A DNA stretch of 42,769 nt from Ruminococcus flavefaciens. GTDB taxonomy: Bacteria > Bacillota > Clostridia > Oscillospirales > Ruminococcaceae. The notes beneath the pieces were generated by a model, which ran no database searches, was not told the origin of the DNA, and saw nothing but the letters and a program-made list of their open reading frames with translations. Both the position numbers and the translations under genes were made by a program. Positions 19,522-42,584 of this stretch are shown piece by piece; the first letter of the stretch is position 1; each line of letters opens with the position of its first letter. Where the stretch lies: contig CACYSQ010000031.1 of NCBI GenBank assembly GCA_902777125.1, positions 1 to 42,769 on the forward strand, in the 5' to 3' direction.

Positions 19522-19758
19522 TTATCCAAGCGATTTCAGCTTCTTCTGGAGCTCGATCATATGGTTACGGCAGGCAGTTATCTCGCCGGTATACTTATTG
19601 AACCACTCAACGTCGCTTTCCTCCGGGGTCTCCTGCAAAAGAACCGCCTGAACGAGGGCAGACTGCGATCTTGAACGCTTACGCTCGATCTCCTCGATCG
19701 TCTGCATACAAACCTTTATCTCTTTTTTGAGCTTCCTCTTTTCACTCCATGCACTCAT
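19522..19758 (-). CDS. Small coiled-coil protein, last gene of the SipW/AAA operon
   Basis: 78 residues, highly charged and almost fully helical (RKLKKEIKVCMQTIEEIERKR, then IELQKKLKSLG), with no membrane segment. It starts at ATG 19758 behind GAGGTGG, 12 bases after the stop of the small membrane protein. No family is recognised. Its place as the last of eight closely packed genes suggests a small adaptor for the system. The ribosome site and tight spacing support a real gene. Confidence 0.65.
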   Translation of the reverse strand: MSAWSEKRKLKKEIKVCMQTIEEIERKRSRSQSALVQAVLLQETPEESDVEWFNKYTGEITACRNHMIELQKKLKSLG

Positions 19759-19770
19759 TTCTATTCCACC

Positions 19771-20223
19771 TCAATTACCTTTCTTGTTTATTTCACTGAC
19801 GATAGCCGCTGCCTCATCGTAACCCTTATCGAGGTCATCGAGGATATCGTCGATAGCATTTTTCACATCGGGAAGTCTCTCCGACATCTGTTCCGGATAC
19901 TTGATAAGGCAGGTATTCAGCTCATTTATGGTCTTCTGCTTATCCTCAAAGCCGTCGATAAGGAAGGCATAGGAGGAGGCACTGCTCATATAGCCGATTA
20001 TCATGGAATACCGCGTATCATAGCCGCCCTCAGTATTAAGGTAGCCCTCTATCTCGCCGGAAACGTGCCTGAGCTCAGTCCGGTACTGTGACCGGTAGGT
20101 CTTCTGCACACGCTCTTTTTCGTCGATGTAGAGACCGATGAACACAAGCAGAGCTATGAGAGTGATGATGAACATGATTATAGCAGTCCACATTCTCTTT
20201 TTCATTAGCTTTTCCTGATTCAA
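19771..20223 (-). CDS. Small single-TM protein with extracytoplasmic helical domain
   Basis: 150 residues from TTG 20223 behind GAGGTG; the TTGA overlaps the TGA stop of the upstream peptidase by 4 bases, indicating translational coupling. An ATG seven codons in has its own AGGA and is an alternative start. A membrane helix spans about 12-32 after a basic N-terminus (KKRMW), so residues about 33-150 should face outside. That part is mainly helical and acidic. No family is recognised. It could be a chaperone or guide in the export of the surface proteins. Confidence 0.7.
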   Translation of the reverse strand: MNQEKLMKKRMWTAIIMFIITLIALLVFIGLYIDEKERVQKTYRSQYRTELRHVSGEIEGYLNTEGGYDTRYSMIIGYMSSASSYAFLIDGFEDKQKTINELNTCLIKYPEQMSERLPDVKNAIDDILDDLDKGYDEAAAIVSEINKKGN

Positions 20224-21152
20224 GCATCATCACCTCTTTCCGCGTCCGATGCGGTACGATTATCTCTGTCGTCATCACCGGGAGCTTCCTCTTCCGGGAG
20301 CTCATCTTCTGTCCCGGGAACGTTTTCCTCCTCCGGGAGCTCATCTTCCGTCCCGGGAACGCTTTCTTCCTCCGGGAACTCATCTTCTGTCTCGGGAACG
20401 TTTTCCTCCTCCGGAGCATCGGGAGCTTCCGGTCCATCGTCATGGGGAGCTTCTGCCGCTTCCTTCATACGGAGCAGCTCCTCCTCCGAGAGATTTTCCT
20501 GAGCGAGACGTTCCTTTTCCTTCTCTATAGCCTCACGGAGAAGCGCCTCGTGCTCCTCCTCTGCGGCTTCCTTCTTTTTTCTGACAGCGTCACGGGTTAT
20601 CCGCGAGATCGTCCTGACCTCATAGAGTGCCGCTGCGAGCATGGGTATCATCACGAGTATGAGCAGGAGTTTTTTCCTGTCGGCAAACGAGCCTATCCAG
20701 CGGTAAAATCTCGCTTTTCCGGTATATCTGCCGTAAATCTGGTCTGACCGGACAGCCTTTCTGTCAGCGGTGCTGTTTGCATCGCCCTTTGTGACGAACG
20801 TGCCGTCGGGTCTGACCTCGATTATCCTGTGCGTGACGAGCTTTCCGTAAACGTCCGGTTCCTCCGAGCGGAAGGTTATCACGTCGCCGACTTCAAGCTC
20901 GTCCGCGGGGGTATCCTTAATGTAGATATAGTCGCCGACCTGGAGGGAGGGCTCCATGCTGCCGGTGACGACCTTCAGCATACTTCTGCCGAAAACGCTG
21001 ACCGGTCTGCCCTTTGAGGAGCAGATCATGATGTATACCACAAATCCGACAAGCACCGCAGTAACTATGGCTATCGCGGCATTTCCCGCAAAGCGCAGCC
21101 TTTTCCGCAGGGTGCTGACGTTATCCTCCTGAATATTTTCTTCGCTGTTCAA
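20220..21152 (-). CDS. SipW-like type I signal peptidase (S26B), with acidic repeat tail (peptidase 2)
   Basis: About 310 residues from TTG 21152 (a TTG at 21158 is directly adjacent to GGTGG and less likely). A first membrane helix lies at about 24-46. The catalytic Ser is in VTGSMEPSL (Ser about 67 from the outer start); THRI supplies His about 110 in place of the bacterial Lys, and KGDANS carries Asp about 126. This Ser/His pattern is that of the SipW/ER-type enzymes, which release TasA-like proteins. A second membrane helix follows (about 162-182), which places the 130-residue tail in the cytoplasm. The tail is helical and charged and then holds three 14-residue repeats of the NVPGTEDELPEEE type. 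The gene follows the DUF2357-like gene by fewer than 20 bases. Confidence 0.85.
   Translation of the reverse strand: MNSEENIQEDNVSTLRKRLRFAGNAAIAIVTAVLVGFVVYIMICSSKGRPVSVFGRSMLKVVTGSMEPSLQVGDYIYIKDTPADELEVGDVITFRSEEPDVYGKLVTHRIIEVRPDGTFVTKGDANSTADRKAVRSDQIYGRYTGKARFYRWIGSFADRKKLLLILVMIPMLAAALYEVRTISRITRDAVRKKKEAAEEEHEALLREAIEKEKERLAQENLSEEELLRMKEAAEAPHDDGPEAPDAPEEENVPETEDEFPEEESVPGTEDELPEEENVPGTEDELPEEEAPGDDDRDNRTASDAERGDDA
20284..20412. repeat. Three tandem 42-bp repeats in the peptidase 2 tail
   Basis: The segment encodes the 14-residue acidic repeats (VPGTEDELPEEE with variants PETEDEFPEE and ESVPGTED). Copies differ by a few substitutions, several of them silent. In-frame repeat number change is likely between strains. 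Confidence 0.75.
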
Positions 21153-21166
21153 AAGCAACCACCGAT

Positions 21167-23386
21167 CTATTCGTTATACTTTCGCTTTTTCTGTGCCCAC
21201 CAGCGGCGTATGAGCTCTGCACGGGTAACGTGATATGCCTTGTAGAGCTGTGCCATCTGCTGTGCTATAGCCTTCTGCTCTTCCGGAGTCCTTACCGGAG
21301 GCTTATATACAGGCTTCGGACGGTTCTTGTCCTCGCGCTTTCTCTTGCGTTTGAACTTTATATCATCACGCCACCGTCTGAAACGGTAATGGAAGGTCTG
21401 TCCGTACTTCCTGTAGTAGAATTCCATTTCGTTGTGCTTTTTCTTTTCCTCTGCTTTCAGGCGTTTCTTCTCGGCGATCTCGGCGCGTCTCTGCTTGAAA
21501 TCAGGACGGTCGGTATTCTCGGGAATGAAGCCGAAAACCATAGCGAGGATATAGCGTACCAGCCGGACGAAGGCGTAAACAGGGTTTCTGGAGTATTCGC
21601 GGCGGATCGTCTCGAAGGGCTTGTTCTCGAAGTACTGGCGTTCGGCCTTGAGACGGTCGGCGCGTTCCTTTTCGGCACGTTCCTTCTCGCGCTTCTGCTG
21701 CTCGATCTTCATGCGGGCAGCGACCTCGCGCGGATCTTCGAATTCGTTCTTGTTCTCCTCGCTGTTTTCTTCGAGCTCAGCCTTGACCTGCTCGACCTCG
21801 TCATCGGTCATATGGTCGTAAACGCTCTGCTTCTCGCGTTCTTCACGAACGGCAGCCTTATTTTCGAGCCTTTCGACATCGACGCCCTCGGCATCACCGA
21901 GCTCTGTACGGACGAGCTTTTTCTCCTCATCGAGACGGGCTCTCTCGGCAGCCTCACGCTCTTCCTGCTCACGTTTCAGGCGGGCAGCCTCCTCACGCTT
22001 GCGGAGATCCTCAAGCCGCGCAAGGCGTTCTGCCTCCTGACGTTCGCGTTCGCGCTCGGCAGCCTCCTGCTCGGCTTTTTTCCTTGCGAGCATTTCCTGG
22101 AGCTGACGCTCCTCCTCCTCGCGCTGTAATCTGATACGTTCGAGCTCCTCCTGCCGGGCAGCCTCGATGCGTTCCTGTTCGAGGCGGCGCTGTTCCTCCT
22201 CCTCTTTGGCTCTGAGCTGTTCCTGACGTTCGAGTTCGAGCTTTCTGACGTACTCGCGTTCGCGGTCGATGATGTTGTTGAGCTCCTCGTAGATACCGGT
22301 GAGGTCGTCCGGGAGCTTTCTTACGAATTGCAGCTCACCGCCGCCTGTGACGTAGCCGGCAGTGGCCTCAGCCTCGATATTGTAATCGGCTGCGAGCTCC
22401 CTGTCGAAGCGCTTGACGATCTTTGGCGCGACGGTTTTACGCTTCTGAGTTTTCAGCTCCTTGAGCTTATCCTCGTTTGAGCTGTTATACGACCGGAACA
22501 GGAGGAAATTGAGTATCATGACCTTGTAGAAGTCGTCGATATATTCCTCTCCGGGCTTAACAGCGGTATTTTCAACATTTATCTCATAGCCCGCCTTGTC
22601 GTAGCTCTCGATGTACTGCCAGAGAGTGAGACAGGCTTTGAGGTCAACATTTTTCATGATCGCGTTGGTACGCATTACAGGAGGTCTGATATAGGAGGTC
22701 CCGAGAGCCTGACAGAGCTCCGAGCCCTTATAGCCCTCGATGATCTTTTTGAGCTTTTCCACACGCTGCCATATCGTAAAGCCGCCGGCATCGTAGGTAT
22801 CGAGGCTGTCGGTAGTCTCGACTTTGAGCTGAATCCTGTACTTTCCGCCGTTTCCGTCGTCAATGGAGGTATCGTAGCCGAGAGCCATTACCTTCTCGTC
22901 CTTTGTGACCTCCGCGAGCTTTTCATAGCGGCGGTTTATGAATATGTAAAGACGGTCGATGAGCGTGTTGATGAACTTGTTCTCATAGGTCATCAGGCTC
23001 TCTTCCTTGTAGACGTTGAGTATCTTGGAGGGCGTGATCTTGCCGGTCCTCTTGTCGATGCTCTGAATGAGGTCGGTGTGCTGTGCGAGGTGCTTGACCG
23101 ATTCGACGGTTATCTTCCTCGACAGCGCTATGGGGACTACCTCCTCGACGTCCTCGATGGTCTTTCTCGGGGCGCGGAGGAAGTTATCGAGGTGGACAAG
23201 ACCGTTCTCGATAGCCTCTACCCACGAAACATCTATGACCTTCTGCATGATCTTGCGGTTCATGGCGAAGGTATTGCGGCTTGAGCGAATGAGCTGATCG
23301 AGCTCGATGAAAAGTTTGTCATCGCTGAAAACTTCGACGAAATCCTTGAATTCGCCGTACCATTTATCATATAAGTTTTCGCTCAT
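21167..23386 (-). CDS. DUF2357-like protein with long coiled coil, partner of the AAA+ ATPase
   Basis: About 739 residues from ATG 23386 (AGG 9 bases upstream); ATG 23392 is also in frame. The N-terminal 380 residues resemble the DUF2357 domain of McrC-like proteins: LRAPRKTIEDVEEVVPIALSR, then SKILNVYKEE and TYENKFINTLIDRL. No PD-(D/E)xK nuclease motif was found. Residues about 385-530 are a nearly unbroken Glu/Arg/Gln helix. Then comes a second charged region, a hydrophobic stretch (VRLVRYILAMVFGFI, about 625-645) that could touch the membrane, and a very basic C-terminus (KFKRKRKRED). It lies directly after the AAA+ gene, the usual order for McrB/McrC-type pairs, but the neighbours are export genes. 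Confidence 0.7.
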   Translation of the reverse strand: MSENLYDKWYGEFKDFVEVFSDDKLFIELDQLIRSSRNTFAMNRKIMQKVIDVSWVEAIENGLVHLDNFLRAPRKTIEDVEEVVPIALSRKITVESVKHLAQHTDLIQSIDKRTGKITPSKILNVYKEESLMTYENKFINTLIDRLYIFINRRYEKLAEVTKDEKVMALGYDTSIDDGNGGKYRIQLKVETTDSLDTYDAGGFTIWQRVEKLKKIIEGYKGSELCQALGTSYIRPPVMRTNAIMKNVDLKACLTLWQYIESYDKAGYEINVENTAVKPGEEYIDDFYKVMILNFLLFRSYNSSNEDKLKELKTQKRKTVAPKIVKRFDRELAADYNIEAEATAGYVTGGGELQFVRKLPDDLTGIYEELNNIIDREREYVRKLELERQEQLRAKEEEEQRRLEQERIEAARQEELERIRLQREEEERQLQEMLARKKAEQEAAERERERQEAERLARLEDLRKREEAARLKREQEEREAAERARLDEEKKLVRTELGDAEGVDVERLENKAAVREEREKQSVYDHMTDDEVEQVKAELEENSEENKNEFEDPREVAARMKIEQQKREKERAEKERADRLKAERQYFENKPFETIRREYSRNPVYAFVRLVRYILAMVFGFIPENTDRPDFKQRRAEIAEKKRLKAEEKKKHNEMEFYYRKYGQTFHYRFRRWRDDIKFKRKRKREDKNRPKPVYKPPVRTPEEQKAIAQQMAQLYKAYHVTRAELIRRWWAQKKRKYNE

Positions 23387-23414
23387 TCGCATTCACCTGC
23401 CGTTCCTGAACGGA

Positions 23415-24992
23415 TCAGAAGAGCTTCTGGAGTCTTTCGAGGTAAGCTATTGATTCGTTCATCTTATTTTTGCCGAAGGATTTGTTCATATATACGCAAA
23501 GCTCACGGAGCTCTTCACGGAGCATTGCAAGGTTAAGTGATTCAAACTTTCTGAATATCTTGGTAGCAAGAACGTAGTCGATACCGTCGAGCTCCTCGCC
23601 GCCGCAGGCAACGTATACCGGCACGAACAGGTTCATCTGCTTGAGGATACGGTTACCGAAGGCAACACGCAGCTTCTCGATGACCCAGAGGTCAAGCTGC
23701 TGGATCTTCTTGAGGTTTTCCTGCGATATCGGGTACTTGTCGAAGGCATCGCGGAAGAGCTGATCGAGGTGATCGAAGCCGAGGTTGATAGGCGGAGTAT
23801 CCGGAGCCTCGAAAGCAACGCCCTTTGTATCGAGGTTGATAGGCTGAGCACGGTCGTACACCTTATCGGAGATAGCGTAGGTGGAATCGTCGTTGTTCGC
23901 AGTACCGATGTACCAGATATTCTGCGGAATGAAGATCTTGCCCTTGTCGAGCTTGACAGGGTCAGTGCTCCATGCGTTCGGCACGATATCGAGAGCCCAT
24001 TCGTCCGCATTGGGCATTTCGAGAATGGAGAGCATCTCAGCGAAGTAATATTCGACACGGGCGATATTCATCTCATCGAGAAGGATAAAGTTGATATCGT
24101 TGTTGTAGCTCGAGGAGTAGATACGCTTGAGTACCTCGGTCTCGTTGAAGTTCTTCGTAAATTCGTTGAAGTAACCGAAAAGCTCGGTACGGTCACGCCA
24201 TGAAGGCTGTACCGAAGCGATAGTGGTATCTACCTGTAAGAACTTGCCGAAGGAGTAGGGGAGTGAGGTCTTACCGGTACCGGAGATACCCTGTAGGATA
24301 ATGAGCTTGGTGGAAGCCATACCTGCTATGAACAGGCGGACCGTCTTGGGCTCATAGTAGAGGTGCATACGCGAGCAGGCGAAATTGCGGTATCTGTCGC
24401 AGAGCTCCTCAAGAGTGATCGTATTGTCGTACTCAGGCGGAGTGTAGGTCTTGTAGAAGGTATCGACCTCGATGAGCTTGGAGAAGCGGTAGTCCGTGGT
24501 CTGAACGACGCCGTCCTCGACAGTGCCGGCAGCCGGGAGCTCTCCGCCTCCGGGAGCCTCGCCGCCGGGAAGGAGATTTCCGCCCTGATAAGCGAGAGAG
24601 GTGCCTCCGGGAAGACCCATCTGCGAGACCTTCATAGCCATGATCTCGTCCTTTTCCTTAGCCATTTTCATGACCTGACGCTGCAATGCGGCGATCTCCT
24701 CAAGGAGGTCCTCATTGCTGACTATCGAATGCCTGAAACGGATATATTTTCTTATCGCAAGGAATATTATCACTGCTATCAGGACATAGATCAGCACAAC
24801 TATTACAATAGACAGCACAGTCAGCACCCAGCCGAGCGCCCCCATGCTTCTGGTATGAGTCTTGATTATATCTATGTAGTTTGGAATGTTGAATATCTGC
24901 GCGAAGCCGTCCCGCAGCCCGCGCCATATCTCGGTGTAGCCCTTGAGCATTTCCGAGATAAATTCAAAAAAGAATTTTAAAAATGCGTTCAT
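23415..24992 (-). CDS. Membrane-anchored McrB/dynein-type AAA+ ATPase
   Basis: 525 residues from ATG 24992 behind CGGAG. An amphipathic N-terminus and one membrane helix (about 52-80) are followed by a short coiled coil (about 92-122) and a Gly/Pro-rich linker. The AAA_5-type ATPase domain has Walker A GISGTGKTS (235-243), Walker B FILLDEMN (302-309) and a sensor-like YIGTANNDD (361-369). It is a MoxR/McrB-class motor, here fixed to the membrane, which is unusual for a McrB restriction subunit. It is followed 22 bases later by the DUF2357-like gene. I infer that it remodels a membrane or exported complex. Nucleotide preference (ATP or GTP) cannot be told. Confidence 0.85.
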   Translation of the reverse strand: MNAFLKFFFEFISEMLKGYTEIWRGLRDGFAQIFNIPNYIDIIKTHTRSMGALGWVLTVLSIVIVVLIYVLIAVIIFLAIRKYIRFRHSIVSNEDLLEEIAALQRQVMKMAKEKDEIMAMKVSQMGLPGGTSLAYQGGNLLPGGEAPGGGELPAAGTVEDGVVQTTDYRFSKLIEVDTFYKTYTPPEYDNTITLEELCDRYRNFACSRMHLYYEPKTVRLFIAGMASTKLIILQGISGTGKTSLPYSFGKFLQVDTTIASVQPSWRDRTELFGYFNEFTKNFNETEVLKRIYSSSYNNDINFILLDEMNIARVEYYFAEMLSILEMPNADEWALDIVPNAWSTDPVKLDKGKIFIPQNIWYIGTANNDDSTYAISDKVYDRAQPINLDTKGVAFEAPDTPPINLGFDHLDQLFRDAFDKYPISQENLKKIQQLDLWVIEKLRVAFGNRILKQMNLFVPVYVACGGEELDGIDYVLATKIFRKFESLNLAMLREELRELCVYMNKSFGKNKMNESIAYLERLQKLF

Positions 24993-25021
24993 GATAAGCT
25001 CCGATCATTTAGTCGCTATCC

Positions 25022-25930
25022 TTATTTTTCCTCGTTATTCTGTTCAGCGGCGATCTCAGTTACAGCTTCTTTGAGCTCATCGCCGGCGGTCTCAGCCTTT
25101 TCTTCGACTGCTTCCCTGGCCATATCTGCGGCAGCCTTGGCTCTTTCCTCAGCCTCAGCAACGGCAGCATCGGTTCTTTCCCCGGCTGATGCGCTGACTT
25201 CTTCGGCAGCTTCCTCAGCCTTTTCTGTAACGGTCTCCTTTGCCTCAGCAGCCTTTTCGGTCACGGTTTCCTTTGCCTCAGCGGCAGCCTCAGCTTCCTT
25301 TTTCTTCTGCTCAGCGAGGTATTCCTCGATAGCACGGCGCTTGATCTCCTCCTCATCAAGCTGCTCGGGAGCATCGTCCTTCTTTATCTCAACGAGGGTA
25401 GCGATGAACTTGTAGAGCTCGAACAGGAAGAATATCGCCATAGGTATGATTATGCACATGAAGAAGCCCTTTTTCGTTCTGAGGAAGTCAAGAGCCTTTC
25501 CGCAGCCTGCGAGCTTCTTTCCCGACCATTTACCGATAATATCGTTCGGTGAAGCGGGAGTATCGTCGTCGATGCCGTTGTTATTGTCGCCTCGGGTGGT
25601 GAAGCTTTCGAGCTGACACTGATCGTTGAGGTTGACCTTGACGATCCTATGGGTATTCTTGACTCTTTTGCCGTCGATGTGCGTCCAGTAGGTGATAACG
25701 TCGCCCTCCTTGAGGTCATTGACATCGTCTATTTCCTTGACTATGATAAGGTCGCCCTTTTTGAAGGTAGGACTCATTGAATTGGATTCAACGGTCATCG
25801 GCATAAAGCCCATGATGTTGGAAACACCGTTGTTTCTTTCTGCTGAGAATACTATCACTGTTACGAGAAGTGCCAACAGGAGGAACACCCATGCCAGAAT
25901 GTTTACTATGATCTTTACCGCTTTTTTCAT
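25022..25930 (-). CDS. SipW-like type I signal peptidase (S26B), with Ala/Glu coiled-coil tail (peptidase 1)
   Basis: 302 residues from ATG 25930 behind AAGGAG. Membrane helices lie at about 9-29 and 155-181. The catalytic Ser is 51 (ESNSMSP), His 94 (NTHRI) and Asp 115 (TRGDNN), the S26B/SipW pattern, so its likely clients are the TasA-like proteins of the divergent operon. After the second helix comes a cytoplasmic tail of 115 residues, first charged (PEQLDEEEIKRRAIEEYLAEQ), then almost only Ala, Glu, Lys and Thr with direct repeats of KETVTEKA. The tail resembles LEA-type helices. Its length is far beyond usual SipW. It may bind the AAA+ or the DUF2357-like protein. Confidence 0.88.
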   Translation of the reverse strand: MKKAVKIIVNILAWVFLLLALLVTVIVFSAERNNGVSNIMGFMPMTVESNSMSPTFKKGDLIIVKEIDDVNDLKEGDVITYWTHIDGKRVKNTHRIVKVNLNDQCQLESFTTRGDNNNGIDDDTPASPNDIIGKWSGKKLAGCGKALDFLRTKKGFFMCIIIPMAIFFLFELYKFIATLVEIKKDDAPEQLDEEEIKRRAIEEYLAEQKKKEAEAAAEAKETVTEKAAEAKETVTEKAEEAAEEVSASAGERTDAAVAEAEERAKAAADMAREAVEEKAETAGDELKEAVTEIAAEQNNEEK

Positions 25931-25949
25931 TTCCTTATTACTCCTTATA

Positions 25950-26747
25950 TCATGTTGATTCTGTTATCTTGAAATCCATACCGAGCTTGATAGTTCCGCC
26001 TATAATGTCGTCGATGCAGTCAGGGTCGTTGCCCTCAAGCCATATTACAATAGTATACTTGTCCTTGTCGTTGGGCTTGAAGCCTTCCTTGAAGGTCTGC
26101 ATGACCTTCGTAGATGAAGCGAACTCCTCATCGCAGTCGCTTTCCTTGCCTCCGCCGCTGGATTTCGTCTTTCCGTAGACCTTCTTTTCACCGTTGGTGT
26201 AAACTGCCACGCGCACCGCCTCGTCAACGTGCTTGGAAACGCTCTCGATAACGAGCTCACCCTCATACGAAATGGTATCGTCACCTGAATTGATAAGGTA
26301 GAAGGTGTAGGCGATGTAGTTCTCACCGTTGTGGCTGCCGTTTATCTTGTCGATATTCGGCGGAAGGTCCTCGCCGCTGATATTGGTCATATCATAGACA
26401 ATATCCGCATTGAGAACGGCATTGGTCTTGCTGTATTCAGGGGTCTCCGAAAGGGTGAGGCCCTGATTTATCATGTCGTATTTGTTTACCCTTACCGTAA
26501 AGCTTCCGAACTGGTCGTAGAAGTAGGATATCGCGTAAGCTACGGCAACGATAGCTATGAGCAGCACCACAAGGAGGCTCAGCACTCTCATTAAAACAAC
26601 ATACCGTTTGACCTCCTTGGCGGTTCGTCTTAATTCAAGAACGTCTCTCAGCCGGGCTTCGCCGTCGCGGGTGTCGGGGAGGGCGTTTTCGGGAGTCTGA
26701 TTTTCAGCAGCTTCCGGAGCGTTCTTCTTTTTCTTTTTACCGATCAA
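25950..26747 (-). CDS. Single-TM protein related to the TasA-like major subunit
   Basis: About 265 residues from TTG 26747, which has GGAG 8 bases upstream; the frame goes on to 26786 but with no ribosome site. A charged cytoplasmic head (KKKKKNAPEAA, then LRDVLELRRTAKEVKR) precedes one helix with VLSLLVVLLIAIVAVAYAIS. The outer domain of about 180 residues is beta-rich (IAYTFYLINSGDD, ELVIESVS). Near the C-terminus it has WLEGNDPDC, matching WYEGEDPNC in the protein at 27994-29004, and both end in a similar hydrophobic strand. It lies between the dead EAL gene and peptidase 1. It may be an uncleaved assembly base or minor subunit. Confidence 0.75.
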   Translation of the reverse strand: MIGKKKKKNAPEAAENQTPENALPDTRDGEARLRDVLELRRTAKEVKRYVVLMRVLSLLVVLLIAIVAVAYAISYFYDQFGSFTVRVNKYDMINQGLTLSETPEYSKTNAVLNADIVYDMTNISGEDLPPNIDKINGSHNGENYIAYTFYLINSGDDTISYEGELVIESVSKHVDEAVRVAVYTNGEKKVYGKTKSSGGGKESDCDEEFASSTKVMQTFKEGFKPNDKDKYTIVIWLEGNDPDCIDDIIGGTIKLGMDFKITEST

Positions 26748-26797
26748 ATCGCATTCTCCGTTCTGAAAATATCGTAATGCAGACAAATCGTCCGCGT

Positions 26798-27556
26798 TCA
26801 GTCGTTATCATTTCTGCGGCATATCCGCTTTTCCGTATCGTAATTTCCGGCGAGAGAGCCTGCACAGTAAGCGCATTCAAACGCATAGAACATTTCCGCC
26901 TGTTTGCTGTTGACGACACCGTCCGCGACAGGCTCACAGCCGAGGTCGCTTACGAAGCCGATGATCGACTTTACGGCATTGTCTGCGCGTTCATCCTTGC
27001 CTATGTGGTTGGCGACTTCGGGGCTCAGCATAACGTAATCGACCGGGAAATCGGCAAGCCTCATCATCGGGCAGACCTCACCGCCGAAGTCCTCGAGCAG
27101 GAAATGAAAGCCTCTGTTTCGCAGTTTTTCGATAGCCGAGGCAGCAGCCCCGTCCTTTTCGGCGAGGAGCTTCTCCGAGAGCTGGAAGCATATCCTGTGC
27201 GTAGGGACATCAAATTTCTCGCATTGCTCAATGAGCTTCATTTCGGCACGTTTTTCCTTCAGGAACCATACAGGCATATAGACCGACAGCCACCCGAAAG
27301 ACATCTCCTTTTCGATGAAACGTGCGCACGCTTCAAGAGCCTGCGTGAATTCGAGGGAGAAAAGGCTCAGGCATTGGGGCGACATCTCCGCTACCTCACG
27401 GTAGGTATCCGGCAGAAGAACGCCGAATTTCTCGGAATTGAGCCTTGTCTGGGTCTGGTAGAAAGCAGCTGTGCCGCTTGAAATTTCCTTGACAGCGCGG
27501 TAATAGAGCTCAACAGCGCGAACTCCTCCGGAATTATCGCTTATTTCCGCCTTCAA
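26798..27556 (-). CDS. Catalytically dead EAL-domain protein, first gene of the operon
   Basis: About 252 residues from TTG 27556, 8 bases after GGGGAGG; a GTG at 27565 overlaps that ribosome site. It is a stand-alone EAL-like fold with FYQTQT at the start, then FGVLLPDTYREVAEM with the whole EALLRW signature deleted. EDFGG replaces DDFGTG, DYVMLSPEV replaces the YxKID Lys segment, and VADGVV replaces AEGVE. The metal and catalytic residues are missing, so it cannot be a working phosphodiesterase; it may bind c-di-GMP or a protein partner. No membrane segment is seen. It is the promoter-proximal gene of the eight-gene minus operon. Confidence 0.85.
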   Translation of the reverse strand: MKAEISDNSGGVRAVELYYRAVKEISSGTAAFYQTQTRLNSEKFGVLLPDTYREVAEMSPQCLSLFSLEFTQALEACARFIEKEMSFGWLSVYMPVWFLKEKRAEMKLIEQCEKFDVPTHRICFQLSEKLLAEKDGAAASAIEKLRNRGFHFLLEDFGGEVCPMMRLADFPVDYVMLSPEVANHIGKDERADNAVKSIIGFVSDLGCEPVADGVVNSKQAEMFYAFECAYCAGSLAGNYDTEKRICRRNDND

Positions 27557-27594
27557 TGCAGCCACCTCCCCAAAGGTTATAATTTATCAATATA

Positions 27595-27623
27595 ATTATA
27601 TCACACCATTCCGGAAATGTCAA
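27595..27623 (-). promoter_or_regulatory. Promoter of the minus SipW/AAA operon
   Basis: On the minus strand, perfect TTGACA (27618-27623) and perfect TATAAT (27595-27600) with a 17-bp spacer. Transcription would start about 30 bases before TTG 27556. Confidence 0.92.
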
Positions 27624-27632
27624 CGGAAAAAG

Positions 27633-27650
27633 ACTTTATCCTGATAAAGT
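27633..27650. promoter_or_regulatory. Palindrome upstream of the minus promoter, possible operator
   Basis: ACTTTATC-CT-GATAAAGT is a perfect 8-bp inverted repeat, centred about 18 bp upstream of the minus -35 box. It has no terminator-like tail. It may bind a regulator. Confidence 0.45.
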
Positions 27651-35100: not shown

Positions 35101-38100
35101 CCTATCTCGGCGGTATGATTGGGCGTGTGGTTGAAAACACCACCAACGAAAGAAAAATTGATATCGACACGGTAACAATGGCAAGTGCTTCTATTGATAC
35201 AAAAGCAAAATACCCCGGCGGACTGCTCGGCGCAATGTGGGACAGAACACTTGTTACGATAGACGGATTGACTATCACCGGCTCAACTGTGAATCATAAA
35301 TATTCTGCCAGCGGCAGCAAGCAGAGCGGCCTTGTATTCAGAGGTTCGGGCAAGTGGGATATCAATTCGCTCAGCATAGGTTCCACTACGTTTAATTCTG
35401 CAAATAATGCTCCGGCATCATTCGGCATGATTGTCAATGAAGCATACAGCGGCAGCGATGGACTGTACATCAATTTGAAAAACAGCGGCTATTCTCTTAC
35501 AAGTGTAGTTATAACAGTGATGGAAACACTGTCGAATCCTAATGATTGTTATGTTGATGAGATCGCCGCTGATACTCAAAACGATGAGAAGGCGGATATT
35601 CTTGTTGGCGGCGATGGTACAGGCATCATAAACATCAATATGAATTCCTCCGCAAGCGGTACACTCACAAAAATCGTGGATGAAGACACGCCTGCAAACG
35701 GTACTGGCACCTATCAGAACAGACTGTACGGACAGCTTGTTAATCTTGTTGCCAATCAGAACAGCAGGTATTATTATAATCTTGATGTGATGCTTGCAAA
35801 GGGAACAAAGGGCAGTACTGCACCGGGCGGCGAGAAATTCCTGCTTTGGTCTGTCACAAAGTATGCTGCAAAAAATATCAAAGGTTACTTCAAAGATAAT
35901 GATAATATGATAACTGAAACTGCCATTGATCTTTCAGGCTTATCATATTATCCTATCAGCGGCGGTGCTGTCACGTTACCGACAGGCGCAATTGTTACCT
36001 TTGGCTTCAATGCGGTCAATTCTCTGGAGAATGTTTCATCAACGCCCGATAACTGGAGCAGAAACCCCGATGATGCAGATGATCCCAATACTGTAAATGC
36101 ACGAAATCAGCACTATATGATGCAGACCGGATTGTTTACAACTGTATCATCCTTGTCTGCAACAAATCTTACACTGAAAGGCAGCTTCGGCTATATTGAT
36201 GGTGCAGCTTCCGGTGCGCTTATAAACGGTTCTACCTCCGGCAGCGTTTCTTTAACAAACTTAAAACTGGATCAGCTCGTGCCTTCCAATTCAAACTCCT
36301 ATTTGCTTATTAACTATATTGACGGTACAGGAACAGCTACACCGACACTTACTGTCAACAAGCTTCGTGCAGAAAATTATAACGCTGCAGGGGTAACTTT
36401 GCCTGTGGCTAAGTCACTGTTTGGCAAGGCGCAAGGTCAGAATATGACCATGACTTTCAGTGATATCAAGCTTGATGCAAGAGATGGGTCTACTCCCACT
36501 GACACCCATTGGAGCAATGCAGCCGCTTCCGATATGGATACAGCATATGGCACAAGCCGCTCTATTTTCAGCACTGCCATTTTCTTCACTGAATTGTTGG
36601 CTGCGAAGACCTGCAACATGGAGTACAACTATGCTGTAGAGGCTGACTGGGGTACCGGAAATCCAAGAAATGTCACTTACGGTAAGGAAGTAACTGATTC
36701 TCGGGAATATCCAAACGGTGAAAAGCGATACAATACCGTCGGCGATACTACCGGACATTTCACTAACCCCATAAGTGACAGCAATAACGAATTCGATTTT
36801 TCAAGCGGATTTCTCCCCTATGTTGCAAACTATACAGCAAAGGGTACCAACACAACATACCCGGTAGTTGAGATCAAGGTAAACTATAAGGTTTCTGGAC
36901 TTAGTGAAGGCTGCGGAACTTATAATGATCCGTATATCATTTCAACACCTGCACAGTTTGAATTGATCGCCAACGTTGTAAACGGTGAGGATTCTCCTGC
37001 TTCAATCAGACTTCCCAATGTGTATAATGCTGATCATGTTTCTGTTTCATGGCATGATTCAACCAACGGAGACGGGCTTTATAATCTAAGTGGAAATAAT
37101 TATAATAAAGATAGCAGCAATACAAATGGAATTAATAATAAGTGGACTAAAACTACACTCAGATATTACCTTGCGTCTGCTTATTATCTGATCAAACAGG
37201 ATATCGTTTTATCTGATAGCTTCAAAGGAATAGGCATACAAGGAAATGAAGTCAACGGTAATGTTGTTTTTCATGGTGTTATTATAGGAAAGAAGAGCGA
37301 TACTACTGCTCCTACGATAACTAATCCAACAGATAAACCGTTGATTTATATCAGCAACGGCTCTGTTGTTAAAAACATTGAAATCAATGTTACAGCAAAT
37401 ATTTCAAAATCGCAAAATGATGTAGGCGACAATGCTATATACGGTTATGGACGGAGATTAACAAATCCAACTCGCTACGAGAATGCAGTTTACTACGGTG
37501 GCGTTATCGGTGAGATAATGGGCGGCGACAATATTATTGATGATGTAACCGTTACCTACTCCGGCTCCACAACTCTCAGCGGAGTTGGCAACAATGATTA
37601 TAAACACCTGATAGCCGAGGGCGGAATGGTCGGTGCGGTTGTGAACGGTGCGCTCATTTTCAGAGGCTCAAACACTGTCAGCGGAAGAACTGTTTCAGGC
37701 GGCGGTATTTATTCCAATCAATTTGTCGGCAGAGTTATCAACGGTTATGCGGTCTATGAGTCGATCTCAGGCAGAACAGGCTCGGCTCCGGATAACTATA
37801 ATACGTATGTAGTTGACGAAGAAGATGAAACTAATGTAACCAAAACCTACACTTATCCTATTGACACAATTGACAGAAGCAACACAAATAAGCTTGATGT
37901 CAATTGGTCTGATTCTACAATAACCGTTCCCGATGCACAGTCTCTTTACATTCTGTCGCTGATCACACAGTCGATTGCAAGTACGGCGAATACTACTGGC
38001 GATGAGAATTATGATGCATATTCGCCTTCGTATGGATATAACAGTTATCTGACAGGTGTTGCAAGACTGGGCGATTACAGCGATGTAGGCTGTGGCGTTT

Positions 38101-41100
38101 CTGCTGAAAAGCCTACGGATTACAGCAGTTATGCTTACAGAGACAGCGTGAATAATTTTTACTCAGCATCATCAATAACGGATTTGCTGAATGCTCCTAT
38201 TCCGTATATTATTTACAGATATACGGAAGCACACGGAACAGAAACTATTGCATCTAAAAACTACCCTGCAAGAAAGATGACTTCGGATAATACCAAATTC
38301 TGGGATATTACGCTGTCTTCTAACGGTGATTTTTCAAGCTTTGACAGTTTTCAGGCTTTCAGGGGAATAGGTTCAGTTGGACTAAACTCCAGCTTTAAAC
38401 AATCAAATAATGGAGACGGAAATTATGGTGATTCAACTGTTAAAACTGCTTTTAAGGTGAGTACATTTAATGGCAATAACAATACCATTAACCTGCATAT
38501 ATGCCTGCCCCGTTATGAGAGAAACCAAGAAAACTATTATCACAAACAAAATATGTCATTTACACAGGTTTATTCAGGACAGCCATTAGATAATACTGTT
38601 TACGGTCACGATGGAAACCTTGAAAAAGTAATGGGGCTTGGTCTGTTTGATTGTGTACTGGTAAAAAATGTTTCTATTGACGAGTATCAATTCCAGAGTT
38701 TTACTTTACAGGGCACTATTGAGGATAAGGTATATGATACAAGTGGTTCTGTTATAACGGGTACAACTGATCAAACACAGCTTTTCTGTGTGGGCGGTGT
38801 TGTAGGAAAACGCGTATATGGAAATAATACTGATTTGTGCTTTGAAGATATTACGTTTGATGGTTTGAGTATTACTGGAGCATTCAGTTGCGGTGGTTTA
38901 ATAGGTATTGATGCAATTAAAAACGCAAAAAAATTGAGAATAACAGGATGTAATTCGACTGCAAACGGTATTAGTGTTACTGGTGGCTATTATGGTAAAG
39001 AGTCAGCTAAAATACGTCATGGAATAGGAAGCTTTGTGGGAATGACATTTTGGTGCAGACCATATATAGATGGCAAGACAGCTACTTTGGATACTTCTGA
39101 TATCTCTGTTTTAAATGTTTCTTCTTTCTATACAGGCGATTATATGAGTAGTGTTGGAGGATTAATAGGTTATTCAGGTTCAGGTGCTGAAATCAAAAAT
39201 ATTAATCTGGTTGCGGCAAACTCAAATGCAGTTATAGGCGGAGAAAAAGCATCAAATGCTGCGGGCTTTATTGGCTTTACACAAGCAATGACTTCAAGTG
39301 CAAGCGCTGCAAACAAAGCCGAACCAGAGGAGGCTGACTTAAATGATTGCGTATATATAGAAAACTGTACGATACAGAATTTGTCAATCAAGGCTAAAAA
39401 TGGTGCTGCTGGATTTGTTGCAAAAAACGGAAACGATGACGTATGGCATACAAAGTATATTTATATTTCCGATTGTGCAGCTATAGGTGATGCAAATAAC
39501 AAACCTGAAATAAAAGCATACGGAACAGGAACAACAACGAAAACCAACTTTGTTGGAGGTTTTGTCGGTGACCTTAGATCTTCTGCTGTAACCTGTTTGA
39601 TACAGAACAGCTATATTGAAAACTACAAAATTGAGGGTTGGCATGTTGGCGGTATCATCGGAGAAACAACATACAGGTCTGCGAATTTAAGAAATCTATA
39701 TGTCAAGAATTGTGAGGTGATTAGGAATAACAAGGGTAGCGGCGCAATAGGCGGTATTGTCGGTTATTCAGATCAAAACCTCAACGGCTATAATCTGAAA
39801 ATTGACGGTGTTGTTTTTAAGAAAAAAACTAGTTCTGGTTATACCGAATCTCCTTCTGATGCAGGTATTATTCTTGGTGAGAGTAATGGTACAAAACAGA
39901 ATAGATTCATCGGCATCGGCGCATACAACTCAGATGCTTCAAAAGTTCCTACAGCTGTTGTTAAAACAAATGGAACAAACAACGGCAACTTCTTCGTCTT
40001 CGCCGATTATCTGAATGCTTCTGCATCCGACACAGCATCAACCTCTCACGCTTCCACCTTCAATATTCTGGCAACTGCAACTGAAGATCAGCTTGTCACC
40101 GTTGACCAGCCTGTAGCACCGTTCCTCACCGTGAACCCTCGCATGACTATGGGCACGGGTGAATACTTGACAGGTGACGGTGCAAGCAATGGCAAGGCAG
40201 GAGAGATCTACAAGGATGCCAAGGCAGGAACTTCTAACCGTAAATACACTATTGGCAGTACAACTGATCCTTCGTTTAGTTCAACCGATCAAACAATATT
40301 GGCGAAATACATCAATGACAACGGCACATACAAGGATGGCGTATTTAAGATTTCGACGGCAGCTGCTGAATTTGGCCAATTGCCTTCCGGTGTACAGGAT
40401 TTTACCATGCTTGTCATCAATGACGATTCAGCAAAGGCAAATGATATCACACCGTTCATCAAGTCCTATATCCGTCTGGTGACGAATGCGGCTGCAGGCA
40501 CACCAAATCAGTATACATACAACCAGTATGCATACAGCTGTGGTAATAATGTTATTGACGCTTTGTACAAAGTCGTAATAAGCCCATGCTACTATAATGA
40601 GAGCACAGGAAAATTCGTTCTCGGAACAGCAGGTGCTCAGGGACTCCAGCTTGACGGCAGCACGGGAAAATACAAGATCGTTTCTAATAATGCTGATTCA
40701 GCATCAGAAAACAAGTATCAGTTCTCGCTCATTGATGTGCAGTTCAAAGATCCGACAGATGAAAGTAAAATTGCATATCATCTTTATGTACCTGTTTACA
40801 CAAAGAAGATACTCAGCGCTGATTTTTATGCAGTGTCCATGAACGCAACACCATACTACCGCAGTGTCTATGCAACTAAAATCGCATCAGAGATCGCAGC
40901 AGGAAAAAATGCAACTAAACGTTCAATTCTGGTCGATAGTACAAATGAATGGACAACAACATTTATCAGATATACTTATCCCCAAAACCAGATATCATCT
41001 TCTTATAATTGGAATTTTGCTAAAAGTATAAGTATTACATTGGAGGAAGCTTTTGACGCCCTTCCAAGTGGAACAAAACTAATACTTCTTGATCCAAACG

Positions 41101-42584
41101 CAAATGTGGATAAATTCTATACTATGACACTTGACGGAACTTGGCAAACTGGTGAAAACAACATGATAACATTAAATCTTTCAGATTTTATTGTTGACGG
41201 TAGTGACGCCGGTGGTGCTGAACCAACGCACTTTGCTCCTCAGAATTTGTCTGATATACTGGCAGACACATCTGCATCAAATGCAAGCGGAACAGAACTA
41301 TATGAGGATTACTATATTAGTTTGTATGTTCCTAAACAGGAGGGAAAAACACACGCTGTACTATTTAGTAGTGGTTCGGAGATGACACATTCAGGTGGTG
41401 AAGAAAAAGCAAATATCGAATCCAAGCTGTGGTCATATGTATTTTTAGGTGATCTTTTTGAGCATGAAATTACAAGCTTTACTCTGGACTCGATCCCAAG
41501 AGAAATAACAGCGGAGAACAACAAGCTGACAACGCGAGTTACCGCAACTGTAAAGTTGAAAGACCCCAATGCAGGTCCTTATCTTAATAATTCTGATATC
41601 ATGCAGGCATTCTATATTTCGCTTACATCACATGATGCCGAGCAGAAGGTTTCAGATTCGATCTACGGTATTAATCAAAGCTATATTTCAAATGAGATCA
41701 CTATAACCTATAACGATGGCACAGATCATTCAAGCACCGTTACTTCTTCTTATCTTGGACCAAACTATGTTGAATTGAAAACCGGAAGCATAAAGGATGC
41801 ACTATTATCTGATGGACAGCCTGTCGTGACAATATCAGCAGTGACAGAAATGACCTTTGTGGATATTAACGCTTTCCCCTATAATCCAGAGGAAAAAGTA
41901 GATATCGGTACGCAGGTATCAATCAAATCCAACATTGCATACAGAGAAGCTGATTTGAGATACAGTACAATGAAGAAGGTTGAAGAAGACCCTGCTGGAA
42001 CATTCTACTATGTTACAACGCAAAACCATGCTAACCTGAGTTTCAGTGCAGTTCCTTCTGATGATTCCGCAGACGAAATAGGTCTTAAAACTAACAACAG
42101 AAGCTTGCTTGGTATCAACGGTAAGTACAGTAAACTTCCCCCGATTATAGGAAAGTCGATCTATGACGCAAATGATATTGTTAATTATGAGAGTTCAACT
42201 GCCATTACGTACAAAATCTCTCTGTATAAGAAAGTCACTGATAATAATGGTACGAGATATCAACAAGTTAATGATATCAGCGATTACCTCGAGAACGTTT
42301 CACTGACTGATTCTGAGGTTACGCTTACAGCAGATACGACTGATCCAAAAGAGTATGTATTCACAGGACCGATCATTCATGAAGATTCTAAAGATCAGGA
42401 CAAAATGTTTGAGGCGAACTTCAGCTGTAATGTAATCACAGGTGATACCGGAAATAGAGAGTATGCAAACTACAAGATCTACATGACAGCAGAATTGACT
42501 GGTTCTACGAACACATGGAAAGATTCCTATATCATTTATACTAACGCAAAGTTTGATCCTTCGGTTATTGATATAGCAAGCTAA
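32178..42584 (+). CDS. Giant secreted protein (3468 aa) with GGxxG (GLUG-like) repeats
   Basis: The start is ATG 32178 behind AAGGTG. The N-terminus is basic with a hydrophobic stretch and a likely cut after NAHA (about 50). About 24 GGxxG turns occur in two blocks (about 290-1020 and 1770-2530), mostly 30-60 residues apart, such as GGFVGEL, GGIAGYC, GGVFGYY, GGLFGKY, GGVIGEI and GGIIGET. They are read as GLUG-type beta-solenoid rungs. An entry motif, GCGTYNDPYIIST (about 1577), opens the second half. The last 700 residues are beta-sandwich-like without GGxxG. There is no LPXTG, dockerin, or C-terminal helix, so attachment must be non-covalent or through the TasA-like proteins. It is probably an adhesin or fibre tip. 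The operon ends after this gene. Confidence 0.85.
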   Translation: MNKKFDYKNKIVKRLISFALASVFVFNSFPVTINNDKAEKSSIVSVFNAHAETNPDELARLVAIYDSQHNLSFTSDGTELSEYSKCFEDPTFAADHANDVITLAPTGGAFRFNEDYNPIGSENSPFRGTIKFTTNNNEFSIENYRPIFNYVSDSVGLMRLSDSENIPININRLGSTSIGPSPLFARHVKGSGANALNNWMIRLNANNATSYSGVIYEMSDGAKINLTFTDDSTHTEVLDPNGNIVAGSIINSVESGTNYGILCGKISGNSQLKATYTVTDTEKVTFIGTSSAYCGGFVGELKSSTFELVSGSSNLNVDFKTAKNDVGFICGHAESSTITLPTGYSFQGTIDGNNCAGGIAGYCKNTVVNYVSSTGTITLDSCNVKNGTKTGGVFGYYECDTYANDILLDRTYSLTSCTITGTGLSGGIAGEYKPTYDHAVTIDLNKYTLGSSIQLKTGTYAGGLFGKYTAPGNVTITDTDTTNAHFVPPSSSVAYGGVIGEYVNSSYSKTLSLSNFTVNNLNCSSSDNVGGIIRQLTNSTYVNVSSVSVTNATASSTTCFGGIISTLDSSNAGSFIDVTGNFTLSLDSGKTYKGGAIAGSFKKGVVRLAGTTDISGAKAANGYAQLVNVNDETLVYAKGSGSDSNWTLKRNADTTASDLGQWGEVVRMFDVNGTPKNAEEAGIVSVANNKVTVAQGVTSITDTVSFAKCALNMQLNDGNDHGALCFTDKTTYPKSVLLGADLTVNGTINLSHTGLLGFMRDGGSDFSSTAECFTGSIAKAAGASTAEIKLATGESYGTYPAGSTGTGGKIYLANTNGHNAQGLFAFAKDASATNLTVSGDIKVERKAGANNLYAGALFGAMTNGATVSGVTVTTTLDVTKVDNAFFFIGGVAGVFDGSESSSTPYVLSVTSSCSITPTIKLYGAIGCTSSTTTNVGGILGSLKGDTATKYGVSVANSDISPIIQIDSTVADVDNSYLGGMIGRVVENTTNERKIDIDTVTMASASIDTKAKYPGGLLGAMWDRTLVTIDGLTITGSTVNHKYSASGSKQSGLVFRGSGKWDINSLSIGSTTFNSANNAPASFGMIVNEAYSGSDGLYINLKNSGYSLTSVVITVMETLSNPNDCYVDEIAADTQNDEKADILVGGDGTGIININMNSSASGTLTKIVDEDTPANGTGTYQNRLYGQLVNLVANQNSRYYYNLDVMLAKGTKGSTAPGGEKFLLWSVTKYAAKNIKGYFKDNDNMITETAIDLSGLSYYPISGGAVTLPTGAIVTFGFNAVNSLENVSSTPDNWSRNPDDADDPNTVNARNQHYMMQTGLFTTVSSLSATNLTLKGSFGYIDGAASGALINGSTSGSVSLTNLKLDQLVPSNSNSYLLINYIDGTGTATPTLTVNKLRAENYNAAGVTLPVAKSLFGKAQGQNMTMTFSDIKLDARDGSTPTDTHWSNAAASDMDTAYGTSRSIFSTAIFFTELLAAKTCNMEYNYAVEADWGTGNPRNVTYGKEVTDSREYPNGEKRYNTVGDTTGHFTNPISDSNNEFDFSSGFLPYVANYTAKGTNTTYPVVEIKVNYKVSGLSEGCGTYNDPYIISTPAQFELIANVVNGEDSPASIRLPNVYNADHVSVSWHDSTNGDGLYNLSGNNYNKDSSNTNGINNKWTKTTLRYYLASAYYLIKQDIVLSDSFKGIGIQGNEVNGNVVFHGVIIGKKSDTTAPTITNPTDKPLIYISNGSVVKNIEINVTANISKSQNDVGDNAIYGYGRRLTNPTRYENAVYYGGVIGEIMGGDNIIDDVTVTYSGSTTLSGVGNNDYKHLIAEGGMVGAVVNGALIFRGSNTVSGRTVSGGGIYSNQFVGRVINGYAVYESISGRTGSAPDNYNTYVVDEEDETNVTKTYTYPIDTIDRSNTNKLDVNWSDSTITVPDAQSLYILSLITQSIASTANTTGDENYDAYSPSYGYNSYLTGVARLGDYSDVGCGVSAEKPTDYSSYAYRDSVNNFYSASSITDLLNAPIPYIIYRYTEAHGTETIASKNYPARKMTSDNTKFWDITLSSNGDFSSFDSFQAFRGIGSVGLNSSFKQSNNGDGNYGDSTVKTAFKVSTFNGNNNTINLHICLPRYERNQENYYHKQNMSFTQVYSGQPLDNTVYGHDGNLEKVMGLGLFDCVLVKNVSIDEYQFQSFTLQGTIEDKVYDTSGSVITGTTDQTQLFCVGGVVGKRVYGNNTDLCFEDITFDGLSITGAFSCGGLIGIDAIKNAKKLRITGCNSTANGISVTGGYYGKESAKIRHGIGSFVGMTFWCRPYIDGKTATLDTSDISVLNVSSFYTGDYMSSVGGLIGYSGSGAEIKNINLVAANSNAVIGGEKASNAAGFIGFTQAMTSSASAANKAEPEEADLNDCVYIENCTIQNLSIKAKNGAAGFVAKNGNDDVWHTKYIYISDCAAIGDANNKPEIKAYGTGTTTKTNFVGGFVGDLRSSAVTCLIQNSYIENYKIEGWHVGGIIGETTYRSANLRNLYVKNCEVIRNNKGSGAIGGIVGYSDQNLNGYNLKIDGVVFKKKTSSGYTESPSDAGIILGESNGTKQNRFIGIGAYNSDASKVPTAVVKTNGTNNGNFFVFADYLNASASDTASTSHASTFNILATATEDQLVTVDQPVAPFLTVNPRMTMGTGEYLTGDGASNGKAGEIYKDAKAGTSNRKYTIGSTTDPSFSSTDQTILAKYINDNGTYKDGVFKISTAAAEFGQLPSGVQDFTMLVINDDSAKANDITPFIKSYIRLVTNAAAGTPNQYTYNQYAYSCGNNVIDALYKVVISPCYYNESTGKFVLGTAGAQGLQLDGSTGKYKIVSNNADSASENKYQFSLIDVQFKDPTDESKIAYHLYVPVYTKKILSADFYAVSMNATPYYRSVYATKIASEIAAGKNATKRSILVDSTNEWTTTFIRYTYPQNQISSSYNWNFAKSISITLEEAFDALPSGTKLILLDPNANVDKFYTMTLDGTWQTGENNMITLNLSDFIVDGSDAGGAEPTHFAPQNLSDILADTSASNASGTELYEDYYISLYVPKQEGKTHAVLFSSGSEMTHSGGEEKANIESKLWSYVFLGDLFEHEITSFTLDSIPREITAENNKLTTRVTATVKLKDPNAGPYLNNSDIMQAFYISLTSHDAEQKVSDSIYGINQSYISNEITITYNDGTDHSSTVTSSYLGPNYVELKTGSIKDALLSDGQPVVTISAVTEMTFVDINAFPYNPEEKVDIGTQVSIKSNIAYREADLRYSTMKKVEEDPAGTFYYVTTQNHANLSFSAVPSDDSADEIGLKTNNRSLLGINGKYSKLPPIIGKSIYDANDIVNYESSTAITYKISLYKKVTDNNGTRYQQVNDISDYLENVSLTDSEVTLTADTTDPKEYVFTGPIIHEDSKDQDKMFEANFSCNVITGDTGNREYANYKIYMTAELTGSTNTWKDSYIIYTNAKFDPSVIDIAS

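Follow-up and report, generated by a model that had tools for sequence, protein, structure and literature searches.

Do the two divergent gene sets at positions 19522 to 42584 of a Ruminococcus flavefaciens contig (CACYSQ010000031.1, assembly GCA_902777125.1) form one system that processes proteins and assembles them at the cell surface? The window analysed is the whole contig, 42,769 nt long; the genome comprises 2.62 Mb in 46 contigs. An earlier note on this DNA had proposed an export machine tuned by cyclic dimeric guanosine monophosphate (c-di-GMP), made of eight genes on the minus strand and five on the plus strand; the list of open reading frames (ORFs) contains all of them, at the positions given below. 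The evidence gives good support to a dedicated machine for processing and assembling surface proteins. That this machine processes and assembles a surface fibre is the explanation we favour, with moderate confidence.

The machinery is encoded on the minus strand. P0005 (23415–24992, minus) is a membrane-anchored, McrB-like AAA+ nucleoside triphosphatase (NTPase): its profile, searched against the PDB, matched three McrB sequences only at E≤0.01 (best E 0.0024), and the protein carries the motifs GISGTGKTS, ILLDEMN (or similar) and GTANNDD. An N-terminal transmembrane (TM) segment, called as a Kyte-Doolittle 19-residue window >1.6 within the first 150 residues, is present in 112 of 112 AAA ORFs from 107 loci. 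The signature in these ORFs is N-N-D-D in 111 and N-T-D-D in one; it fits NxD followed by D, yet it aligns without gaps to NTAD of McrB and is readable as NxxD. After the TM segment P0005 has a short coiled-coil-like stretch, judged by eye; no FtsB/DivIC family was matched in Pfam at E≤0.1. P0004 (21167–23392, minus) matches DUF2357 (PF09823, McrC N-terminal-like; E 1e-7), its sole Pfam family at E≤0.1, and has a long charged tail that looks coiled-coil-like by eye. A model of its N-terminal part (predicted local distance difference test, pLDDT, 75.5; predicted template modelling score, pTM, 0.55) had no Foldseek match at E≤0.001, and a PDB profile search with the P0004-type alignment found no credible relative.

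Two S26B (SipW-type) signal peptidases flank this pair. P0006 (SipW1; 25022–25930, minus) and P0003 (SipW2; 20220–21158, minus) score 90.0 and 95.1 bits against TIGR02228, whose cut-off is 51.85, and the Ser, His and Asp motifs are found in both; against the Bacillus SipW model the P0003/P0006 pair scores 104.8 and 104.7 bits, under the cut-off of 190 bits. Many SipW2 relatives failed a strict motif pattern; on reading, these proved to be variants (for example HR without the preceding T), not losses. The assignments of the AAA+ protein, the DUF2357-like protein and both peptidases, all made in the earlier note, are thus confirmed. Gene fusions usually mark proteins acting together, and of 68 loci 34 have SipW2 fused to the end of the DUF2357 gene (separate in 31, not called in 3); the fused ORFs have ∼985–1000 residues, with the SipW2 profile at about residues 750–1000.

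Scanning genome contigs with P0005 turned up 135 loci with a relative. Of these, 80 were kept, 56 of them from records titled Ruminococcus; the three nearest named relatives, from Ruminococcus sp. and R. flavefaciens, have 87–92% identity. The gene order EAL-P0007-SipW1-AAA-DUF2357-SipW2-P0002-P0001 is near-universal across the 80 loci where contigs reach. With denominators restricted to loci whose contig reaches far enough, P0008, the EAL-derived protein, was present in 67/67, P0007 in 73/74, SipW1 in 74/76, P0004 in 70/70, SipW2 in 66/68, P0002 in 46/60 and P0001 in 56/58. Genes were called by a greedy picker at fixed distances. It produced spurious misses of P0002 (14 loci), P0006 (L067 and L083) and P0007 (L079), genes that another listing of the loci does show. 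The P0002 count is an underestimate, as the picker discards overlapping ORFs (e.g. in L020, L021 and L025).

AAA matches at E≤1e-30 were found in 24 of 391 class-level genomes and in 10 of 299 phylum-level genomes, in the latter case the genome of the window itself plus nine whose matches are distant McrB-like proteins (2e-36 to 1e-30). From a subset of the distant AAA matches we compared 35 stretches of other genomes: four more distant ones of the same family, 23 at class level and eight with McrB-like proteins. Close relatives of the TM-anchored AAA in more distant Clostridia (L099–L102 and L156–L171; 20 loci, 18 genomes) have a SipW gene in 20 of 20 cases, a P0007-like gene in 17, a P0009- or P0010-like gene in 16 and an EAL-like gene in 11, several contigs being cut short. 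One ORF of L160 was scored as both P0007-like and P0009-like; L161 and L169 belong to the same genome, on separate contigs, and the contigs of L160, L161, L169 and L171 stop within the locus. Loci with remoter TM-anchored AAA proteins (L172–L178) have SipW in 0/7 and DUF2357 in 5/7, and those with McrB-like AAA proteins lacking the TM segment (L179–L184, L103 and L104) have SipW in 0/8; thus the SipW link marks one branch and not all McrB relatives.

Among the remoter loci, L173–L176 (Clostridia) contain another membrane McrBC-like system: DUF2357 adjoins the TM-anchored McrB-like AAA, large proteins with a hydrophobic N-terminus are present, and there is no SipW. Two AAA copies are seen in L173–L175, and L173 also encodes a 903-aa protein with a transglutaminase core.

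The earlier note knew of no described system with this gene set; the core, however, matches CoCoPALM, which is named in PMC11090510 (2024), where a few sentences of one paragraph treat it and defer to a later publication. As that text presents it, the likeness lies in the McrB-like NTPase with an N-terminal TM segment, the DUF2357 (McrC) partner and the neighbouring signal peptidase family, an association seen here for SipW1 and SipW2 in the counts given above and in all 20 of the more distant loci. Since the McrB-like AAA, the TM segment, DUF2357 and the signal peptidase link all fit, we file the locus as a CoCoPALM variant rather than a new class. Several features go beyond the main text of PMC11090510, in which SipW and TasA occur 0 times: the dead EAL, the two SipW-type peptidases, the DUF2357-SipW2 fusion, the family formed by P0007 and P0009, the P0010–P0013 module, and its distribution across Ruminococcus and further Clostridia. 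Among the PMC papers listed for CoCoPALM, only PMC11090510 (eLife) and its preprint version were relevant by title. In the PMC papers searched, none was found that pairs SipW with DUF2357 or Ruminococcus with camelysin, and searches for TasA/SipW in Ruminococcus and for R. flavefaciens signal peptidase or pili returned none, by title, on this system.

The same parts could serve membrane quality control, with a SipW-tied NTPase-DUF2357 unfoldase pulling back or clearing unprocessed or misfolded surface precursors and not driving assembly. Membrane AAA+ unfoldases commonly clear such proteins, and the DUF2357-SipW2 fusion and the membrane anchor would fit this role equally well. Among the eight conserved genes, however, no protease family was found besides the signal peptidases, and P0007 and the subunit-like genes kept alongside point to one dedicated product more than to housekeeping of the membrane. 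We consider quality control unlikely, although it fares best among the alternatives.

The McrBC ancestry of the AAA also raises the question of an anti-phage system, a relative of McrBC-type restriction that would use the surface proteins as sensors or receptors; the PADLOC model PDC-M26A matches P0005 at E 3e-39. Like E. coli McrBC, the locus has an McrB-family AAA+ protein and a DUF2357 partner. Unlike it, the AAA+ protein has a membrane anchor and the neighbours are secretion genes, and no nuclease family, PD-(D/E)xK being the one expected for McrBC restriction, was detected in P0004 (Pfam, E≤0.1) or the other seven minus genes. The genes that recur nearby encode signal peptidases and proteins of surface type. 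For want of a nuclease family and given these secretion neighbours we rank a restriction or defence function low, as an improbable reading.

If the locus instead encodes a surface-assembly machine, its substrates are to be sought in the plus genes. P0009 (27994–29004, plus) is the probable main fibre subunit, judged by alignment; it has the SipW-type signal SSATYAWFT and a mature domain predicted to be beta-rich, and its relatives show the signal ATYAWFT and, in most alignment rows, a WxEGxDxxC-like C-terminal motif. P0010 (29255–30202, plus; signal GSIAWFAMN) and P0011 (30219–31058, plus; signal VYAWLSYQ) would be minor subunits, the N-terminus of P0011 matching the P0009 profile (87.1%, E 4e-6). 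P0012 (31076–32125, plus), by alignment, is a candidate minor surface subunit. Its kinship with P0009 found no support (HHalign 1.6%, no significant link to the P0009 profile). P0013 (32178–42584, plus) is a secreted protein of 3468 residues and a probable adhesin or tip; it has 23 repeated, GLUG-like glycine motifs, where shuffles gave a mean of 1.05 and a maximum of 6, for a pattern picked after reading the protein. P0013 had no Pfam match at E≤0.1. The SipW-type signals that the earlier note ascribed to the plus set are plain, by eye, only for P0009, P0010 and P0011 (AWF or AWL after a hydrophobic stretch); the signal of P0012 is atypical and that of P0013 looks ordinary. In L058 (3520–5624) two P0010-like genes adjoin each other, a duplicated minor subunit.

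The minus operon contains a relative of the main subunit. P0007 (25950–26786, minus) spans the membrane once and has a beta-rich ectodomain that is homologous to the P0009-type profile (HHalign 98.4%, E 4.1e-15), and its WxEGxDPxC motif lies C-terminal to a TM segment that looks uncut. P0007 is likely an anchor or base. A PDB profile search with the P0007-type alignment found no credible relative.

The TasA-like identity that the earlier note gave to the subunits was not upheld: P0007 and P0009–P0012 have no match to Peptidase_M73 (PF12389) at E≤0.1 and none to BsaA models, and TIGR04090 and TIGR04088 gave no match to them at E≤5. Seven P0009-like proteins from other loci likewise had no match to Peptidase_M73, TIGR04090 or TIGR04088. 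What the plus subunits have in common with TasA is a SipW-type signal, a beta-rich fold predicted with low confidence, and partnership with SipW. The PF12389 search of the window's own genome, with a control that included Bacillus subtilis, yielded two weak matches only, both at another SipW locus. That locus (L215; contig C30, 20000–32000) has SipW, BsaA-family, class B sortase-like and second signal peptidase genes, and one of its proteins scores above the cut-offs of TIGR04090 (91.7 bits, E 5.8e-26) and TIGR04088 (22.0 bits). Since L215 is an ordinary SipW-BsaA locus and the genome has only one P0005-type AAA, the SipW-type system in the window is a different one, and the genome has two.

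Do the plus genes belong with the minus operon? Relatives of P0011 occur in 8 of 247 genomes of the family; all 8 are among the 14 with a full-length AAA (10 close ones, the own genome included, and 4 at 44–46% identity), against 0 of the 233 others. The hypergeometric probability, 9.8e-12, assumes independent genomes and overstates the case because the genomes are related. The earlier note had named, as a finding that would speak against it, operons that almost never occur together; in this sample P0011 is found with the AAA 8 times out of 8, which, with the synteny in the 80 close loci and in distant Clostridia, argues for one co-inherited export and assembly system. Outside the own genome only P0011 was searched genome-wide (P0009, P0010, P0012 and P0013 in the own genome only). 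Of 50 AAA genomes covered in this way, drawn from the 80 loci and mostly from those with longer contigs, 34 carry a P0011 relative at E<1e-30. A P0011 relative is present in the cultured isolates R. albus 8 (L061) and the R. flavefaciens strains of L027, L040 and L056. Near the AAA, a relative of P0009–P0013 was seen in 47 of 80 loci and in 27 of 33 whose 10-kb flanks are complete, and the order P0010-P0011-P0012 is retained wherever found. Adjacency of the operons as a rule had to be rejected: divergent and collinear arrangements and separate contigs are all seen. The link is therefore one of inheritance and not only of position, and co-occurrence kept despite distance argues for functional coupling. 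In six loci (L159, L162, L163, L164, L169 and L170) a P0009-like gene lies within the operon, in the P0007/SipW1 interval, and this ties the subunit to the machine more firmly than any other finding.

Several observations weigh against a fibre-assembling machine of this composition, and some of them would favour a plus set that is an independent surface module merely neighbouring the minus operon. P0011 and the AAA share a contig in 5 of 8 genomes and are on different contigs in 3 of 8. A strong P0011 relative is missing from 16 of the 50 AAA genomes (13 have none, 3 a weak one at 3e-4 to 9e-4). Six of the 33 full-flank loci (L035, L051, L059, L064, L066 and L070) have no P0009–P0013 relative nearby; P0011 is found elsewhere in the genome for L064 and L066 and not at all in the other four genomes. 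The G+C content of the plus genes is 0.38–0.46, that of the minus operon about 0.50–0.54. Set against this, every P0011 relative found in the 247 genomes accompanies the AAA, and P0009-like genes lie within the operon in L159, L162, L163, L164, L169 and L170, so that we give the independent module little chance. Further points concern the fibre and the motor. A full-length AAA is present in one of four sampled genomes of the own genus (the own one), the module thus being patchy. P0009–P0012 match no curated TasA, CalY or BsaA model, and no PDB sequence was matched by profiles of P0009 relatives. The AlphaFold2 model of P0009 is mostly beta and of low confidence (pLDDT 65.7, pTM 0.71), with no Foldseek match at E≤0.001; an archaeal bundling pilin (7ueg) is second of its 371 Foldseek matches, at E 0.049, a hint only. 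The N-terminus of P0013 reads as an ordinary signal peptide, ending in FNAHA and followed by ET, with no SipW-type signal. McrC was absent among the 50 best matches in the P0004 fold search, and the DUF2357-type relative from L162 matched no Pfam family. The proposed coupling of the NTPase to processing is drawn from gene fusion and neighbourhood only.

The first gene of the minus operon, P0008 (26798–27565, minus), encodes a 255-aa degenerate EAL protein (Pfam EAL, E 3.9e-31). It is dead, as the earlier note had it: with the canonical EAL protein at 14783–17512 of the window as reference, P0008 retains 1/9 residues of the catalytic and c-di-GMP site, and 75 of 75 close sequences, the window's included, keep 0–3/9. 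Direct tuning by c-di-GMP through P0008, as the note had envisaged, therefore finds no backing, and direct binding of the nucleotide is unlikely, judging by these residues. P0008 does have a role, as the gene is kept in every close locus that could be scored. Twelve EAL relatives were compared from the more distant loci: that of L170 keeps 8/9 residues and the other 11 keep 0–3/9; the EAL-like labels of L099–L102, L157 and L158 come from weak scores (∼1e-4 to 1e-7) and their residue counts are rough, and the EAL-like gene of L099 has no label and is included by position. The L170 gene, at 13632 on the minus strand, occupies the operon position of the dead EAL, which suggests that activity was lost within this system. 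In L162, L163 and L170 (Pfam) a canonical-motif EAL protein with an N-terminal hydrophobic segment adjoins the operon, making an indirect c-di-GMP link possible; by reading, L161 too has a canonical-motif EAL protein there. As to P0008 itself serving as the c-di-GMP receptor of a tuned export machine, its retention in 67/67 close loci, the canonical EAL proteins beside the operon and the L170 residues speak for it, but the residue losses, the calling of an EAL-like gene in 11/20 more distant loci only (several cut short) and the absence of a c-di-GMP riboswitch from the window at Rfam gathering thresholds (the only hit being a T-box at 4095–4324) leave this very improbable. Near the operons, the reference protein is one of GGDEF-EAL type with canonical EAL motifs (minus strand), and a PAS-GGDEF protein is encoded at 155–2293 (minus).

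With P0008 placed, the transcription order of the minus operon is P0008, P0007, P0006, P0005, P0004, P0003, P0002, P0001. P0002 (19771–20223, minus) is a small protein with a single N-terminal hydrophobic helix, whose gene overlaps P0003 by four bases (20220–20223); P0001 (19522–19758, minus) is a charged protein of 78 aa, and a terminator-like hairpin lies 3′ of the operon (19324–19348, minus). The overlap had been noticed before, as had a divergent pair of TTGACA-17-TATAAT promoters, which we find as two 12/12 sigma-70 sites facing away from each other, at 27595–27623 (minus; start codon of the minus operon 30 bases further) and at 27869–27897 (plus; P0009). They are the only perfect sites among the 37 promoter-like sites of 19000–32000, where shuffles give 16.9 (standard deviation 4.7). 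The five plus genes had been taken for one operon. The perfect promoter stands, but there are probably at least two transcription units, given a terminator-like hairpin in the P0009/P0010 gap (29056–29075, plus; 7 pairs, all G-C) and a promoter-like TTGATT-17-TATAAT upstream of P0010 (29167–29195, plus; 10/12, TG ahead of the second hexamer). From the hairpin, this promoter-like site and a GGAGG resembling a ribosome-binding site upstream of ATG 29255, the start of P0010 is likely 29255 and not 29201.

Elsewhere in the window, a GH9-CBM3 cellulase gene (11070–13436, plus) has a dockerin-like stretch just under the Pfam cut-off, and the host looks cellulosomal. The T-box leader (RF00230, 124 bits, plus) lies just upstream of ORF 4368–5180, which has sub-threshold similarity to SieB and is followed by a valyl-type tRNA synthetase gene (5201–7819). 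Over 28000–42000 the G+C content of the plus genes lies below that of the rest of the window (about 0.47–0.54).

How does the locus compare with SipW-dependent polymers already described? In Bacillus subtilis, SipW cleaves TasA and TapA, and TasA polymerizes by donor strands (PMC9674648). Like tapA-sipW-tasA as described there, the locus combines SipW peptidase with secreted subunits that have SipW-type signals, and by analogy P0007 may take a TapA-like first-subunit role; in contrast, that operon, in the same description, has one SipW and no AAA+, DUF2357 or EAL gene, and the subunits here lack a Peptidase_M73 match. In Clostridium perfringens, secretion of the polymer-forming BsaA needs SipW, and recombinant BsaA polymerizes by itself (PMC7395162). 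The sipW-bsaABCRSD locus, as presented in that paper, shares with ours a terminator after the first subunit gene, with read-through, and, on our reading, a SipW-dependent, polymer-forming surface protein; it differs in that ‘ATPase’ and ‘AAA’ are absent from the main text of PMC7395162, and L215 is such a locus in the own genome.

For the surface-fibre machine we propose the following mechanism. Precursors with SipW-type signals (P0009 as the main one; P0010, P0011 and perhaps P0012 as minor ones) would leave the cell by the general Sec route and be cut by both S26B peptidases, SipW1 and SipW2. P0007, as a membrane-tethered relative of the subunits, would form the assembly base or anchor, and the giant glycine-motif protein P0013 would probably be the tip or adhesin. 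The membrane-anchored McrB-like NTPase would form a ring that works, together with its DUF2357 (McrC-like) partner, from the cytoplasmic face. As half of the relatives examined have the DUF2357-SipW2 fusion, the nucleoside triphosphate (NTP) cycle would probably be linked to peptidase 2: it would gate cleavage and release, or set their order, and in this way the subunits would be passed on in the right sequence. P0008 would act as a protein-binding scaffold or switch, not as a c-di-GMP enzyme. Fibre formation, the membrane topology, the roles of single subunits and the coupling of NTP hydrolysis to processing are what we infer here. The most specific version, an McrBC-derived NTPase serving as the motor of an energised fibre-assembly pathway in one-membrane bacteria, with DUF2357 physically coupling the ring to the peptidase and NTP hydrolysis timing both cleavage and the hand-over of donor-strand subunits that form a new beta-rich family, we put forward tentatively, as a possibility somewhat short of even.

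The locus joins a membrane McrBC-related motor to two signal peptidases and likely fibre proteins, a pairing named in print but hardly described in the text that names it. For the SipW-dependent polymers described so far, no source of energy for assembly is apparent. If our reading is true, a SipW-linked McrB-like NTPase would offer a novel means of powering or timing the assembly of surface proteins, and an engine of DNA restriction would have been reused for the cell envelope. CoCoPALM gains a concrete set of candidate substrates, a dead EAL partner, a testable model and cultured isolates for tests. R. flavefaciens and R. albus are among the main fibre-degrading bacteria of the rumen, and the gene set occurs in both species, where adhesion matters.

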